Of a stretch of 50,608 bases of DNA, positions 9,225-50,608 are shown piece by piece. The notes beneath the pieces are model-generated. The model was given only the letters and a program-made list of their open reading frames with translations. It did no database searches and was not told the DNA's origin. Location: the NCBI GenBank assembly GCA_016931385.1, contig JAFGEV010000204.1, forward strand, positions 1 to 50,608, read 5' to 3'. The stretch comes from Prolixibacteraceae bacterium. GTDB taxonomy: Bacteria; Bacteroidota; Bacteroidia; Bacteroidales; Prolixibacteraceae. Both the position numbers and the translations under genes were made by a program. Numbering within the stretch: the first letter of the stretch is position 1; each line of letters opens with the position of its first letter.

Positions 9225-11966
9225 TTGAGCGACTTTAAAATTTTTAATTTGGCCTACATTCGAAACATACTTATTCTACACCTGTTAATTCATTTATGCA
9301 CAATTGCCTATACTCAAAACGAGGGGCAAGTTCCCCTTGCTATTGACTCAGTAGCCCAAAAAATTATTAGCGACACTACCATATACCCGATCGACTTTCA
9401 ATCAGGAATAGACTCACTTTCAATTCCTGATTCCCTTATGGCTATTAGCGACTCACTGTTGCAGGACAGTATAAAAAGCCAAAAAACATTTATCGATTCA
9501 CCTATCGATTACAATTCTACCGATTCAATGTCTATCTCGATTGAAGACGGAGAGCAGATTGTATACCTTTTTGGAGGGGCAGACATAAAATATGGCAGCA
9601 TTGAATTAACCGCAGAATACATAGCTGTTAATTTTAACAAGCGTGAAATTTTTGCCAGTGGCATAGCCGATTCAACCGGCAAATTAATTGGAAAACCACA
9701 TTTTAAAGAAGGACAGGAAGAATTTGATTGCGAAACCCTCAGATACAATTTTGAATCGGGGAAAGGTTTTGCCGAGAACGTTGTAACCGAGCAGCAGGAT
9801 GGCAAAGTACACAGCGCCAAGGCAAAAATGCTAAGCAAAGATATCTTTTGCATGGCCGACGGGAAATACTCTACCTGTGATGCCGAACACCCTCATTTCT
9901 ATCTGAATATTACAAAAGGAAAAATAGTTGGCAAAAAAGCTATAATTGCCGGCCCTTCGTATTTGGTACTGGAAGATTTCCCTATTTACTTTCCTCTGTT
10001 GCCCTATGGGTATATACCAACATTTAACAAAACTTACAGCTCTGGAATCATCTTACCTAAATACGGTGAAGAAAAAACATGGGGCTTTTACCTTAAAGAC
10101 GGAGGATTTTACTGGGCGGCATCCGATTATTTCGATGTGAGGATAACCGGCGACATTTATTCAAAGGGAACATGGGGCGTGAATGTAAATTCAAGATATA
10201 AGCTCAGGTATAAATTTTCAGGAAGTTTTGGTTTTAATATTAAAAACAATGTAACCGGGGAAAAAGGGATAAACCAGAATGTAAGCAAAAACTTCTCAAT
10301 ACAGTGGAGCCACAGCCAGGACGCCAAAGCAAACCCATCTTTCAAATTTTCAGCAAATGTGAATTTCTCTACCAGCGGTTACGATCAGATGAATGAATAC
10401 GACAACCACGAAAACTACCTTACAAACAGCAAATCGTCGAGCATTTCATTAAGCAAAGACTTCATGGGCACACCATTCAGGATGTCGGCCAACCTCCGTC
10501 ATTCGCAAAATTCAAAAGATTCAACCATTGCCCTTTCACTTCCTGAAATAACTTTTAGCATGCGCACCATTTACCCTTTCAGGAGCAAAAACAGGGTCGG
10601 GAAGAAAAAGTTCTGGGAAGATATTTCGTTTTCATATACCATGAACATGAAGAACACCATAAAAACAAAGGAATCAGAACTCTTTACTACGCCCCTATCG
10701 GAGTGGCAAAATGGCGTTAACCATTCTATTCCAATTACCCTGCCTTCATTCAGGCTGTTTAACCACATTAACTTCACCCCTTCAATAAACTATCGCGAAA
10801 CCTGGTTTTTTGAACACAAAGAAAAATATTGGGTTGACGGATACTTTGTTACCAACAATGAAACAGGGCTGCAAAAATGGGTTTCGGGTCATGTACAGGA
10901 AAACACCATCGACGGATTTAAGCGCAATTACGAATTTTCTGGCGGAGTTGGAGCCAGTACTATCCTCTATGGTCTTTATCAGATGAAAAATCCTAATTCG
11001 AAGATACAGGCAATCAGGCATAAAATGAGCCCGACAATTGGTTTTAACTACCATCCCGATTTTGGTGATCCGGCTTATGGCTTTTATGAATGGGTGCAGG
11101 TCGATTCTTTAGGCAATCTTCAACAATACAATATTTTTGAAGGCGGGGTATACGCTTCAACATCGAGAGGTGAAAGTGGCTCGGTAAGTTTCGGGCTTAA
11201 CAACAATATTGAAATGAAAGTGCTGAACGACAAGGATACAACCTCAACAGAGAAATTCAAAAAAATCCCAATATTCGATAACATCGGGTTCAGCGGGTCA
11301 TACAACCTTGCTGCCGACTCGATGAACCTTTCAACCATCAGCCTGAACGCCCGCACAAAAATTGCAGGAACCGTACTTAACATTAACGGCACCCTTGACC
11401 CATATGCCCTCGACAACAGGGGAAACCGCACAAAGGAATACATGTGGAACCAGGCTACCGGACTTGCCCGGCTTGGACGCATCACCAACCTGGGCACTGG
11501 CTTTGGCTTTAATTTCAGTTCCGATAAAATGAAGAAAAACAGGGAAGAAAAAGAAAAAAAGGCAGGAAAACAAGGTTCAGAAAAAAAAGAGGGCATGTTA
11601 TCGGAAAACCCCTCAGATGAAGAATTACAGTATCAGAAATTCGATATGCCCTGGCGTTTTAGTTTTAATTACAATATAAGCTATACGAATTACAGGGGCG
11701 ACCCAAAAATCAACCAAACCCTTAGCTTTAACGGGGGCATTGATTTTACCGACAAATGGAAAGCAACCTTTTCATCGGGTTTTGACCTTGAGGCCTTTAA
11801 GTTTACCCATACCCAGGTAACGGTAACCCGCAACCTTCATTGCTGGAGCATGTCGTTCGATTTTTCTCCTTTTGGGTTAAGGCCCTATTATTCTTTCAGG
11901 ATAAGCGCAAATGCAAGCATGTTACAAGACCTGATGCTGGAGAAAAAATCATACGATTTTCAATAA
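9225..11966 (+). CDS. lptD: LptD/OstA-family outer membrane LPS assembly-like protein
   Basis: OstA-like N-terminal region (GGADIKYGSIELTAEYIAVNFNKREIFA), long beta-rich C-terminus; TTG start; divergent from amidase as is common in Bacteroidota. Confidence 0.85.
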   Translation: MSDFKIFNLAYIRNILILHLLIHLCTIAYTQNEGQVPLAIDSVAQKIISDTTIYPIDFQSGIDSLSIPDSLMAISDSLLQDSIKSQKTFIDSPIDYNSTDSMSISIEDGEQIVYLFGGADIKYGSIELTAEYIAVNFNKREIFASGIADSTGKLIGKPHFKEGQEEFDCETLRYNFESGKGFAENVVTEQQDGKVHSAKAKMLSKDIFCMADGKYSTCDAEHPHFYLNITKGKIVGKKAIIAGPSYLVLEDFPIYFPLLPYGYIPTFNKTYSSGIILPKYGEEKTWGFYLKDGGFYWAASDYFDVRITGDIYSKGTWGVNVNSRYKLRYKFSGSFGFNIKNNVTGEKGINQNVSKNFSIQWSHSQDAKANPSFKFSANVNFSTSGYDQMNEYDNHENYLTNSKSSSISLSKDFMGTPFRMSANLRHSQNSKDSTIALSLPEITFSMRTIYPFRSKNRVGKKKFWEDISFSYTMNMKNTIKTKESELFTTPLSEWQNGVNHSIPITLPSFRLFNHINFTPSINYRETWFFEHKEKYWVDGYFVTNNETGLQKWVSGHVQENTIDGFKRNYEFSGGVGASTILYGLYQMKNPNSKIQAIRHKMSPTIGFNYHPDFGDPAYGFYEWVQVDSLGNLQQYNIFEGGVYASTSRGESGSVSFGLNNNIEMKVLNDKDTTSTEKFKKIPIFDNIGFSGSYNLAADSMNLSTISLNARTKIAGTVLNINGTLDPYALDNRGNRTKEYMWNQATGLARLGRITNLGTGFGFNFSSDKMKKNREEKEKKAGKQGSEKKEGMLSENPSDEELQYQKFDMPWRFSFNYNISYTNYRGDPKINQTLSFNGGIDFTDKWKATFSSGFDLEAFKFTHTQVTVTRNLHCWSMSFDFSPFGLRPYYSFRISANASMLQDLMLEKKSYDFQ

Positions 11967-12079
11967 ACAGGCAGAAGGCATAAGATAAACAGGCAGAAGG
12001 CAGAAGATAAAGAGGCAGAAGGCAGAAGATAAAGAGGCAGTAGATAAGACCATTCGTCAGTAGTCAGTAGTCAGTAGTC
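11966..12079. repeat. Intergenic tandem repeats: 22-bp unit (AACAGGCAGAAGGCAGAAGATA) x3.5 followed by (GTCAGTA)x3
   Basis: Direct reading; units start at 11966, 11988, 12010, 12032; heptamers at 12056-12079. Confidence 0.9.
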
Positions 12080-12119
12080 TTCAGGCGAGGACAGTCAATT
12101 GTCAGTAACAATGAATAAA

Positions 12120-12572: not shown

Positions 12573-12646
12573 AGCTTCGGCGATAAACCCGCCTTCGCTA
12601 AAAGCTTCGGCGATAAACCCGCCTTCGCTAAAGCTTCGGCGGCTAA
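12573..12646. repeat. 29-30 bp direct repeat AGCTTCGGCGATAAACCCGCCTTCGCTAAA, two copies plus partial third
   Basis: Starts at 12573, 12603, 12632; contiguous, no spacers. Confidence 0.9.
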
Positions 12647-13451: not shown

Positions 13452-13802
13452 TTATTTCTCCTCTGCTTTAGCTTTTACTTTGTTACGCCTTTTCTCGCTA
13501 TATTCAACAGCATGTTTATCGAGCCTGAATGTTAAAAACCTGATGATGCGTTCATCACGACGGTATTCAATTTCAAGCTTTTCAATAAAGGTTGGTTCCG
13601 CCTTAAACTCGAGCAGATGATAAAACCCGGTAGATTTCTTCTGAATGGGATAAGCCAGTTTTTTCAGCCCCCAGTCTTCCTGGTGTATGATTTCGCCTCC
13701 GTTGGAGCTTACCATTTCACCAAATTTATTTATCACCTCTTTGAATTGTGCTTCCGACAAAACCGGTGTGGCAATAAATACTGTTTCATATTGATTCAAC
13801 AT
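13452..13802 (-). CDS. rpsF: 30S ribosomal protein S6
   Basis: [19 protein letters not shown]...[22 protein letters not shown]. Confidence 0.98.
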
Positions 13803-13851: not shown

Positions 13852-13895
13852 CCGCGTAATCGACCGGTAAATAATCGGTTACATGGATTCAGCGG
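13852..13895 (-). promoter_or_regulatory. Structured rpsF leader hairpin, candidate S6:S18 autoregulatory element
   Basis: Minus strand CCGC-TG-AATC ... ACCG-ATTATTTAC-CGGT-C-GATT-AC-GCGG nested hairpin about 50 nt upstream of rpsF. Confidence 0.4.
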
Positions 13896-13983
13896 AATTC
13901 GAGGCGCAAAATTAGAAATTAATTCCTTATAATCAAATTACCTGCTAATTTATATTCGTGAATTTAATCTGGATATTAGATGC

Positions 13984-14116
13984 TGGATGCTCGATGCTGG
14001 ATACTGGATGCTTGATCCTCGATCGTTAATCGTTAATCGTTAATCCCTAATCGTTAATCGCTAATCGTTAATCGTTAATCGCTAATCGTTAATAATAAAT
14101 CGTTAATCGTTAATCA
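13984..14116. repeat. Heptanucleotide-period repeat array, 19 units (TGGATGC to TCGATCG to TTAATCG)
   Basis: Unbroken 7-bp phase read directly across 133 bp. Confidence 0.97.
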
Positions 14117-14189
14117 GTATCCAATACTCGATATTCGGTTTTCAATTAATGAATGGTCTGTCTTCGATCTTCTCCCTTCCCTCTTTTTT

Positions 14190-14224
14190 GAATTTGTGAT
14201 TTGGAATTTGTGATTTGGAATTTT
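14190..14224. repeat. Heptad repeat (GAATTTG/TGATTTG) x5
   Basis: Units at 14190, 14197, 14204, 14211, 14218. Confidence 0.93.
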
Positions 14225-14267
14225 TTTACCAATGCCAATTTTATACATTTGGACAAATTATTTTTGG

Positions 14268-15911
14268 ATGATGTTTTGTAAAATTACTTTCATTTCTATA
14301 CTGTTTTTTCTGTTGGCAAATGTTGGTTCAGCCCAGCGCAATGCTTTTGAGAACCGGAATGCGCCATTGATTGTTGTTGGGATTACCATTGAACAGCTAA
14401 GGCCCGATTATATTACACGTTACTGGGATTCATTCCAGCAGGGAGGGTTTAAGCGCCTGATAAACGAAGGGGCCTTCACCCTTAGCGCCAGGCTCGATAT
14501 TCACAATATCAACAGTTCATCGGTTGCTGCTTCGGTATACACAGGCACTTACCCCGCCGAACATGGCATTGTGGCCAATAAGTGGTACCGACAACTTACA
14601 GGTGAATATATCCATTCATATAAAAACGATTATTATTTAACCCTGGGCAGCGACTCAAAGGTAGGAAACGCTTCAGCAAATATGTTGAAAGCTTATACTG
14701 TAGGTGATGCATTGAAACAAAACAGCAATTTCAATTCGAAAGTTTTTTCGGTTTCGTTAACGCCCGGCCCGGCAATTTTCAGCGCCGGACATGCTGCCGA
14801 TGGCGCTTACTGGTATGACATAACATCGGGAAATATGATTTCATCATCGTATTATATCGATGCTTTTCCTGATTGGATCAGGCTTTTCAACGATAAGAAA
14901 ATACCCGACACCTACCTTGAACGGGAATGGGATTTATTATTGCCCAAAGGTAGTTACAAGAATAAATTCAACGACGATTATATCCTTGAAAAAGGATACT
15001 GGAACAAATGGAACACATTTCCATACAGCCTTCCAAAGCTTTCAACCATGGCCGGATCGAAATACGAAGTTATGTGCATCACCCCATGGGGAAACAGGTT
15101 GATCAGGGATTTCGCTGTTCAACTAATCGAACGCGAAGGACTTGGAAACGATGAAATGCCCGATTTAATGGCCATTAACTTTACCTCGCTTGGCTTTGCC
15201 AACAAATGGTTCGGCCCGGTTTCAACCGAGATGCACGACCACTATCTCAGGATAGATCAGGATATTGCTTCTTTATTAAACTATCTGGACAAAAAAATGG
15301 GCAAAGATAATTACCTGGTTTTTTTGACTGCTTCATCAACCTGCGACTATGGGATTGAATTTATGAAGGAAGAAATGAATTTCAATGCAGGCGAATTTTC
15401 ACCACAAAGCGCCATGGCATTGTTAAAGGCCTATCTTCATGCACTGTATGGCCCTGGCGAGTGGCTGGTCGGGTACAATGAAGAACAAGTGTATTTAAAC
15501 CACAACCTGATTGATGCAAAAAGTAAATCGCTTGACGAAATGCAGGATAAAGCCGCCCTTTTTCTTAACCAGTTTGAAGGGATAAAAGCAGCCCTGCCCG
15601 CGCATGTAATCGAAAAAGGGAACCTCGACAATCCACGTTTTTATGCAATTGAAAACAGCTATTGCGTACAGCGTTCGGGCGATATAATGCTGCTTCTTGA
15701 AGAAGGATGGCAGCCCTCATACAAATACAACGAAGTAGATTACAGCACATATAACCAGGCGCCTGTAATATTTTTCGGCTCGGTTGTCCGTCCAGGCGAG
15801 ATTGTTGAACCTGTTGAAATTACCGATATTGCACCTACAATTTCACGGTTTTTAAAAATATTGCCTCCTGACAATACCCGTGGAAAAATTATTCAATCGG
15901 TTTTTTGGTAA
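14268..15911 (+). CDS. Secreted alkaline phosphatase-superfamily (PafA/type I phosphodiesterase-like) protein, predicted catalytically inactive
   Basis: Fold-level similarity to PafA family (GGFKRLINEG, ASVYTGTYPAEHGI, TDIAPTISRFLKI) with signal peptide MMFCKITFISILFFLLANVGSAQ; ligand motifs degenerate. ORF track start 14232; ATG 14268/14271 fits signal peptide better. Confidence 0.85.
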   Translation: MMFCKITFISILFFLLANVGSAQRNAFENRNAPLIVVGITIEQLRPDYITRYWDSFQQGGFKRLINEGAFTLSARLDIHNINSSSVAASVYTGTYPAEHGIVANKWYRQLTGEYIHSYKNDYYLTLGSDSKVGNASANMLKAYTVGDALKQNSNFNSKVFSVSLTPGPAIFSAGHAADGAYWYDITSGNMISSSYYIDAFPDWIRLFNDKKIPDTYLEREWDLLLPKGSYKNKFNDDYILEKGYWNKWNTFPYSLPKLSTMAGSKYEVMCITPWGNRLIRDFAVQLIEREGLGNDEMPDLMAINFTSLGFANKWFGPVSTEMHDHYLRIDQDIASLLNYLDKKMGKDNYLVFLTASSTCDYGIEFMKEEMNFNAGEFSPQSAMALLKAYLHALYGPGEWLVGYNEEQVYLNHNLIDAKSKSLDEMQDKAALFLNQFEGIKAALPAHVIEKGNLDNPRFYAIENSYCVQRSGDIMLLLEEGWQPSYKYNEVDYSTYNQAPVIFFGSVVRPGEIVEPVEITDIAPTISRFLKILPPDNTRGKIIQSVFW

Positions 15912-21983: not shown

Positions 21984-22119
21984 GGAACTGGGCTCAGGGC
22001 GCTGGCCATTGGCACCAAAAAGCCGACAGCCATCAGCAAAAAGCCCTAAACCAATAGCCTTCAGCCTTTTTAACTTCGGCCGGCAGCCTCATTGGAATTT
22101 GGATTTTGAAATTTGAAAT
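21984..22119. repeat. Composite heptad repeats: (GGCNNNN), (AGCCNNN)x7, (TTGRAAT)x4
   Basis: AGCCGAC AGCCATC AGCAAAA AGCCCTA AACCAAT AGCCTTC AGCCTTT at 22021-22069; TTGGAAT TTGGATT TTGAAAT TTGAAAT at 22092-22119. Confidence 0.88.
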
Positions 22120-22122
22120 TTT

Positions 22123-22359
22123 TTATAAACTCCTGTGTGTCCCGTCGCAAAAAGGCTTATTCTTTGTATGCTTGCACTGGCATAAGTAGTAGGTTTTCTT
22201 TTCAGTAACCTCAAAGGGCATAGGTGAAAATTCACTTCCCTTATGCGAACCATCGCAGAAAGGTTGGTTTTTACTTTCCCCACAGGCGCACCAAAAATAT
22301 TTTCCGGGCTCAAGTTCCATGGCGGCAGGGGCTTTCACTGCAATTTTTGGATCTTTCAT
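22123..22359 (-). CDS. Double CDGSH iron-sulfur domain protein
   Basis: CACGESKNQPFCDGSH and CQCKHTKNKPFCDGTH. Confidence 0.95.
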   Translation of the reverse strand: MKDPKIAVKAPAAMELEPGKYFWCACGESKNQPFCDGSHKGSEFSPMPFEVTEKKTYYLCQCKHTKNKPFCDGTHRSL

Positions 22360-26490: not shown

Positions 26491-28311
26491 ATGAACAAGT
26501 TAAGAAGCTCAACCTCGACACAGGGCCGCAAAATGGCCGGCGCAAGGGCGCTATGGCGTGCCAACGGCATGACCGAAGAACAGTTTAACCGTCCGGTGAT
26601 TGCCATTGTCAATTCGTTTACCCAGTTTGTCCCCGGCCACGTACACCTGCACGAAATTGGTCAATACTTAAAAAAGAAAATTGAAGCAAAAGGTTGCTTT
26701 GCTGCCGAATTCAATACCATTGCCATTGACGATGGTATTGCAATGGGGCACAACGGGATGCTTTATTCCCTCCCTTCGCGCGACCTGATTGCCGACAGTG
26801 TTGAATACATGTGCAACGCCCACACGGTTGATGCCATGATCTGCATTTCGAACTGCGACAAAATCACCCCGGGAATGCTCATGGCTGCCATGCGCCTGAA
26901 CATCCCTTCAATATTTGTTTCAGGCGGTCCGATGGAAGCCGGTAAAGTTGACGGTGAAAAATACGACCTGGTTGACGCGATGGTAATGGCCGCCGACCAA
27001 AACATTTCTGATGAAAAAATCTCAAGTGTTGAACGTTCGGCCTGCCCAACATGCGGTTCTTGCTCAGGTTTGTTCACGGCAAATTCAATGAACAGCCTCG
27101 CTGAAGCTATTGGCATGGCGCTGCCCGGAAACGGCACTATCGTTGCCACACACGCCAAACGGCTGGAGCTTTTTGACGAAGCTGCCGACCGCATTGTAAA
27201 AATCACTGAAGATTTTTATTTCAATGGAAATGAAAAGGTACTCCCCCGCTCAATCGCAAGCCGCGAGGCTTTCATGAATGCCATGACCCTCGATATTGGC
27301 ATGGGCGGAAGCACCAATACCATTCTCCACCTTCTGGCCATCGCCCACGAAGCCAAAGTTGACTTCAGCATGAAAGATATTGACGCCCTGTCGCGCAAAG
27401 TACCCAACCTTTGTAAAGTAGCCCCAAGTTCACGATATCACATGGAAGATGTTAACCGTGCCGGTGGAATACTTGGCATCATGGGCGAACTCGACCGGGC
27501 AGGATTGCTCGACACTACTGTAAACCGGGCCGACCAGCTTACCCTGGCCGAAGCGCTCGACCAGTTCGACATTATGCGCGATACCGTTACCGAAAAAGCT
27601 AAACAACGATACCTAGCCGCACCGGGCAACTACAAAAACCTTGTGCTGGCATCGCAGGAAAAATATTACAAAGAAGCCGATACCGACCGTGAAAACGGGT
27701 GTATCCGCGATCTTGAACATGCTTATAACAAAGAAGGAGGGCTCGCCGTACTTTTTGGCAACATTGCCAAAAGCGGCTGCATTGTCAAAACGGCAGGGGT
27801 CGATCCATCGGTTTTCCAGTTCCATGGTACAGCAAAGGTTTTTCATTCGCAGGAAGCAGCCTGCAACGGCATTCTTGGCGATGAAGTACAGGCCGGTGAC
27901 GTGGTTTTCATCCCGTACGAAGGGCCCAAAGGCGGGCCTGGCATGCAGGAAATGCTTTATCCAACATCGTATATTAAATCGATGAAGCTTGATAAAGCCT
28001 GTGCCCTGGTTACCGACGGCCGTTTTTCAGGCGGGACATCGGGCCTTTCAATTGGCCATGTTTCGCCCGAAGCTGCTGCTGGCGGCGAGATCGGGCTTGT
28101 CCGCAACGGCGATAAAATCGAAATCGATATCCCTGCCCGAAAAATAAACGTACTTGTCAGCGATGAAGAATTGAATAACCGCCGTATAGAGGAACAAGCC
28201 AAAGGCGACAAAGCCTTCACCCCAACCCGCGACCGCAAAGTCAGCAAAGCACTGCGGGCTTATGCTGCAATGGTTACTTCATCAGACAAAGGCGCTGTAA
28301 GAGAGATATAG
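26491..28311 (+). CDS. ilvD: Dihydroxy-acid dehydratase
   Basis: [67 protein letters not shown] at 26491 preferred over ORF track TTG at 26431. Confidence 0.98.
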
Positions 28312-28381
28312 GTGCTGGGAGCTGGGTACTGGGTACTGGGTTCTGGGTTCTGGAATTTGGAATTTGGAATTTGGAATTTTC
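28312..28381. repeat. Heptad repeat array, 10 units (GTGCTGG to GTACTGG to GTTCTGG to AATTTGG)
   Basis: Unbroken 7-bp phase read directly, starting immediately after the ilvD stop codon. Confidence 0.96.
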
Positions 28382-28418
28382 CTAAGTCTAATAATTAAAA
28401 ATAAATAAGAAAAAAGAT

Positions 28419-50489: not shown

Positions 50490-50524
50490 TAACTGGGTAC
50501 TGGGAACTGGTCGCTGGGTACTGG
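50490..50524. repeat. Heptad repeat (NNNCTGG) x5
   Basis: TAACTGG GTACTGG GAACTGG TCGCTGG GTACTGG; same family as 28312-28353. Confidence 0.92.
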
Positions 50525-50608
50525 TCTGTCTATGCCTGAATAAGGTTGACCTAATTATTTAAACTATTTTGTTTATTATAATGATAATTGGCTGTTAAAA
50601 ACGGGAGA

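Follow-up and report, generated by a model that had tools for sequence, protein, structure and literature searches.

Heptamer direct repeats, among them TAACTGA, are known from Beggiatoaceae, Cyanobacteria and five Bacteroidetes, in arrays that reach 43 copies (MacGregor 2015, PMC4679880). Gramella forsetii and A. sublithincola carry further heptamers in intergenic regions; these are missing from close relatives that share the gene neighbours (PMC4679880). The GGGANTN heptads of Xanthomonas are variable and form 70–75 inverted pairs per genome, and GGGGAYT repeats occur in Nostoc (PMC4692102). As summarised in PMC4679880, the LSSR survey of Mrazek et al. 2007, which covered units of 5–11 nt, found heptanucleotides to be the commonest class in most genomes and proposed polymerase slippage.

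The array analysed here occupies positions 13984–14116 of the window, a stretch of 50,608 nucleotides that represents one contig (C238) of a 4.59-Mb Prolixibacteraceae draft genome in 448 contigs (G000). It is a further case of the bacterial heptad arrays already described (PMC4679880, PMC4692102). A preliminary description of the locus knew of no formal equivalent in this group; intergenic heptamer direct repeats of Bacteroidetes are, however, on record (PMC4679880). Like those repeats, the ones found here are intergenic Bacteroidetes heptads that form assemblages of several heptamers and are absent from the same neighbourhood in close relatives. The Beggiatoaceae repeats mostly use one motif near start codons, whereas we find many motifs, drift within arrays and arrays close to stop codons. 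The focal units are of the TGGATNC and TTAATCG types rather than TAACTGA, and the nearest called start lies 115 bp beyond the end of the focal array. The likeness to the heptads of PMC4692102 extends to variability, intergenic position, location near the end of the upstream gene (28 nt on average), inverted convergent pairs and turnover between species, in arrays of 2–26 units. The motif described there forms a G-quadruplex, whereas 13984–14116 contains no run of three or more G. The 2007 survey, in the same summary, deals with series of repeats whose length exceeds statistical expectation, whereas the focal array has imperfect, drifting units. Cyanobacterial STRR sequences (Calothrix PCC 7601, heterocystous; as cited in PMC4692102) are likewise tandem heptads by their description there, but form fixed, named consensus families.

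The array between rpsF and a phosphodiesterase gene

The focal array lies in the gap between two divergent genes and thus upstream of both. Gene calls are plain ORFs. The gap and its borders contain the following features.

13452–13802, minus strand: rpsF (ribosomal protein S6), which opens the rpsF-rpsR-rplI operon (Pfam PF01250, PF01084, PF03948)
13852–13919, minus strand: rpsF leader or promoter region, near-invariant between G000 and its congener G001; the focal array begins outside the conserved part (comparison with G001)
13970–14018, plus strand: TGGATNC-type block, TGGATAT TAGATGC followed by units 1–5 (13984–14018) (sequence)
14012–14025, plus strand: intermediate units TTGATCC TCGATCG (sequence)
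14026–14116, plus strand: TTAATCG/CTAATCG block, units 7–19; the exact TTAATCGTTAATCG is unique to this spot in G000
14113–14138, minus strand: short tail of heptads in the opposite orientation, CGAATAT CGAGTAT TGGATAC on the minus strand (sequence, folding)
14186–14223, plus strand: second array in the gap, TTTGGAATTTGTGA/TTTGGAA, with a related TTTGGAA-like array at the equivalent place in G001 (repeat list, G001 comparison)
14232–15911, plus strand: type I phosphodiesterase/nucleotide pyrophosphatase family protein (Pfam PF01663)

Between 13984 and 14116 the nineteen 7-bp units follow each other without an indel, and the unit list of the preliminary description is exact for all 19. To the left of 13984 the array continues to about 13970 (TGGATAT TAGATGC). 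Identity at lag 7 is 0.802, with 101 of 126 positions equal; 3000 dinucleotide shuffles give 33.6 matches on average (sd 5.3) and never more than 54. The identity is 0.80 at lags 14 and 21 and 0.05–0.34 at lags other than multiples of 7. The array thus shows 7-bp tandem units beyond chance at an intergenic site, in a genome with a lag-7 excess over coding DNA, as expected of a heptanucleotide LSSR.

Every one of the 19 focal units has AT at positions 4–5 and a purine (A or G) at position 3, which gives a RAT core. The order of the units is not random (p = 0.00025) because like units cluster; the TTAATCG block taken by itself has a random order (p = 0.95). Similarity between units drops with distance, from 0.80 for units one apart to 0.59 for those ten apart, and the transition units TTGATCC and TCGATCG are placed at the junction between the two motifs. 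In G000, pairs of TTAATCG occur nowhere but at the focal locus.

A hairpin reading of the array was considered and rejected. The MFE structure pairs the left block with 14113–14138, a weak pairing that is no better than in shuffles (z of −0.86 and 0.04). Instead of complementary heptad arms within 350 bp, the focal array has only this short tail. An Rfam search of the window and of the focal gap gave no match.

Congener G001 has both genes in the same arrangement and keeps the rpsF leader and the TTTGGAA-like array, but its syntenic gap has no TGGATGC/TTAATCG array. The focal array therefore occupies the unconserved middle of the gap. G001 has gained a TGGATGC array elsewhere (L091, 9077–9114), where the matching gap of the window is only about 50 bp long.

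We counted 25 distinct TGGAATT/TGGRTAC arrays, and eight of them are no more than 200 bp away from a contig end; with 448 contigs, about one would be expected there. Since arrays break the draft assembly in this way, exact unit numbers are uncertain. C7, C20, C30, C129, C141, C212, C328 and C384 carry heptad arrays at their ends or close to them, roughly eightfold above expectation. The focal array lies 14 kb into its contig; an assembly artefact could still affect its copy number.

Arrays elsewhere in the window and in related genomes

The preliminary description counted at least six other gaps of the window with heptads, a slightly generous figure. Three arrays pass a strict lag-7 test:

12050–12086, plus strand: GTCAGTA heptad array
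22092–22126, plus strand: TTTGGAA-type array with convergent genes on either side and a related array at the equivalent place in G001
28307–28385, plus strand: compound array that begins at the stop codon of an ilvD-type gene and passes, in constant phase, from a TGGGTAC-type motif to TGGAATT; L075 (C404) repeats this compound order

The other three (11963–12040, 14186–14223 and 50500–50526) are weaker and appear on the TRF list only.

Genome-wide figures for G000 were drawn from sampled stretches. Over 223 kb of unselected sequence, intergenic DNA has a lag-7 identity of 0.2978, compared with 0.2870 (sd 0.0038) for lags other than multiples of 7 (z = 2.8); in 599 kb that were partly picked for matches, the lag-7 value is 0.3027 (z = 4.8). 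No lag-7 excess was found in the coding DNA of the sampled stretches. The preliminary description had proposed a genome-wide intergenic class of heptad repeats and had named an intergenic lag-7 excess as its test. With the excess present in intergenic DNA and not in coding DNA, the class is genome-wide.

The 599-kb sample contains 20 intergenic arrays at lag 7, 11 at lag 6 and none at lags 5, 8, 10, 11 and 13. The lag-6 arrays are mostly of the AAGGTT/GAGGTT/GGCTGA type, and some are CAG-like; drifting arrays of the former type were observed at L228, L230, L235, L009, L015 and L019. Two tandem copies of TGGAATT occur 27 times in G000 and those of its reversed control once; the corresponding counts for TGGRTAC are 11 and 0. 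Among relatives in the family the number of lag-7 arrays varies, and some have none in 100 kb. Across 299 genomes of the phylum, three copies of TTGAYAA are found in 27 and those of the reversed control in none, and three copies of TGGRWNY are found in 89, with its control also in a good number.

A second genome, G355, belongs to the same class and a different order. In a 320-kb sample of it, intergenic arrays number 34 at lag 7 and 0 or 1 at each other lag from 2 to 13. These arrays use quite different heptads, so what they have in common is unit length rather than sequence. Unrelated heptad motifs form inverted repeats there (L163, L179–L208, L209–L224), with arms of about 25 to more than 100 bp, and a palindromic core (TGCGAGACCTCTGGTCTCGCAC ... 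GTCGCCTCTGGCGAC) recurs inside several of the hairpins. A polarity of the arrays relative to the replication strand is suggested among the matches listed. Whereas the focal array is ordinary in itself, the set around it bears on why long repeats in bacteria favour seven-base units, and the inverted, mirrored arms of G355 could allow template-switch copying or hairpin selection to be tested.

Origin of the array

We consider it likely that replication slippage and point mutation gave rise to the focal array, an intergenic heptanucleotide simple-sequence array, and continue to shape it. Strand slippage during replication would add or remove whole 7-bp units, units would acquire point mutations, and a mutated unit could be amplified in turn (TTGATCC, TCGATCG, then TTAATCG). 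Since mutated units would be amplified successively, the motif drifts while the phase stays, and because slippage moves whole units, the phase would outlast any number of substitutions. The array sits between divergent genes, in a spacer with no apparent constraint on length or sequence, and we infer that this copy has no specific function.

In simulations of slippage and mutation, neighbouring units reach an identity comparable to that in the focal array and the phase is kept; as units get further apart, similarity declines less steeply in the simulation than it does in the array itself. Stepwise change of motif with phase kept is also seen at 28307–28385 and at L075, L085, L156, L157 and L163. 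Hexad arrays of G000 drift likewise in 6-bp phase, for example from GGCTGA through GGTTGA to GGTTAA (L228), and at L073 a single gap runs from heptad to hexad and back to heptad. Successive slippage and mutation, one of two explanations offered in the preliminary description, is thus supported by the order of the units, the simulation and the drifting hexads. The restriction of the lag-7 excess to intergenic DNA, the loss or gain of arrays between the gaps of G000 and G001 and the turnover among relatives in the bacterial precedents (PMC4679880, PMC4692102) also speak for it.

The other was a process or ligand that reads 7-bp steps. A protein or other ligand bound at this spacing, with selection keeping the phase and letting the sequence drift, would fit the invariant AT and the purine before it in 19 of 19 units. 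However, whole-unit slippage keeps the phase by itself, hexads drift in the same way and the 7-6-7 transition exists, so that a fixed 7-bp reader is not needed and is disfavoured. The array is, moreover, missing from the same gap in G001, and different arrays have no single core sequence in common. We regard such a ligand as highly improbable. Selection on a fixed core at the focal array was set aside: the RAT core is unusual, since a three-position core of equal constancy persists in only 1.4% of the simulated arrays whose ends differ as much, but this test was devised after the data had been viewed. The proposal that arrays are seeded by dispersal, with particular heptads or compound arrays copied between loci (through ectopic recombination or by a small mobile element) before local expansion, draws on the same compound array (TAGGTGCTGGG...TGGAATT x4...TTTTC) at window position 28307 and at 42.7 kb of C404, on specific heptads far above their reversed controls and on the recurrent palindromic core of several G355 hairpins. 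The focal array was found to have no conserved flank, no target duplication and no gene, and pairs of TTAATCG are confined to one place in G000; dispersal is, in our view, quite improbable as its source.

Heptad arrays might alternatively be gene-end elements, either a transcribed 3′ UTR that is G-rich on the coding strand or a hairpin that serves as bidirectional terminator or RNA stabiliser. Of the gene ends that face an array in G000, 14 of 23 are no more than 30 bp from it, compared with 4 of 18 for gene starts (Fisher p = 0.015; the second sample behind these counts was partly picked for matches), and the G-rich strand is the coding strand in six of seven tandem gaps. In G355, an inverted partner was found no further than 350 bp away for 37 of 42 arrays (0 for the reversed control), the G-rich arm comes first in all 20 scored pairs and, in several pairs, the two arms mirror each other's unit order more closely than shuffles do. 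The focal array, however, is upstream of both genes and not at a gene end, contains as much G as C and folds no better than shuffles. A strong inverted partner was found for none of 27 arrays in G000, and the strand bias is not seen in family relatives. A gene-end role is, in our view, an unlikely explanation. A broader reading joins these strands into one class of Bacteroidota intergenic arrays, with fixed length (7 bp, or in certain genomes 6 as well), loose sequence, a site at gene ends and, in some lineages, inverted mirrored hairpins. It would be explained by a length-specific generator together with a 3′-end role and would make the focal array a single-armed, displaced member; we think this unlikely.

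Slippage and mutation, the explanation we favour, leaves three features unexplained: the preference for length 7 (6–7 in this genome), the recurrence of particular heptads across the phylum and the focal RAT core. Mismatch repair misses loops larger than about 4 nt, and the length preference may stem from the replication machinery together with this blind spot for larger loops. Slippage that is blind to sequence does not predict the recurrence of particular heptads above their reversed controls; these heptads either slip more easily, or are copied between loci, or are selected.

Further elements near the gap

The rpsF leader at 13852–13919 (CCGCGTAATCGACCGGTAAATAATCGGTTACATGGATTCAGCGGAATT) is strongly conserved, has no match in Rfam and contains two copies of TAATCG, as found in the focal array. 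It is possibly a site of S6/S18 autoregulation. On the other side of the gap, TACATTTG at 14244–14251 is present in G001 too and fits the Bacteroidota −7 element (TAnnTTTG). As it falls within the called phosphodiesterase ORF, the true start of this gene may be an ATG just downstream.

Soon after the end of an L-PSP family gene, at 12573–12641, a 30-bp unit that contains AGCTTCGGCG and CCCGCCTTCGC is present in two and a third copies. A palindrome in the congener gap (L091), CGAAGCTTCGGGG, is related to this repeat.
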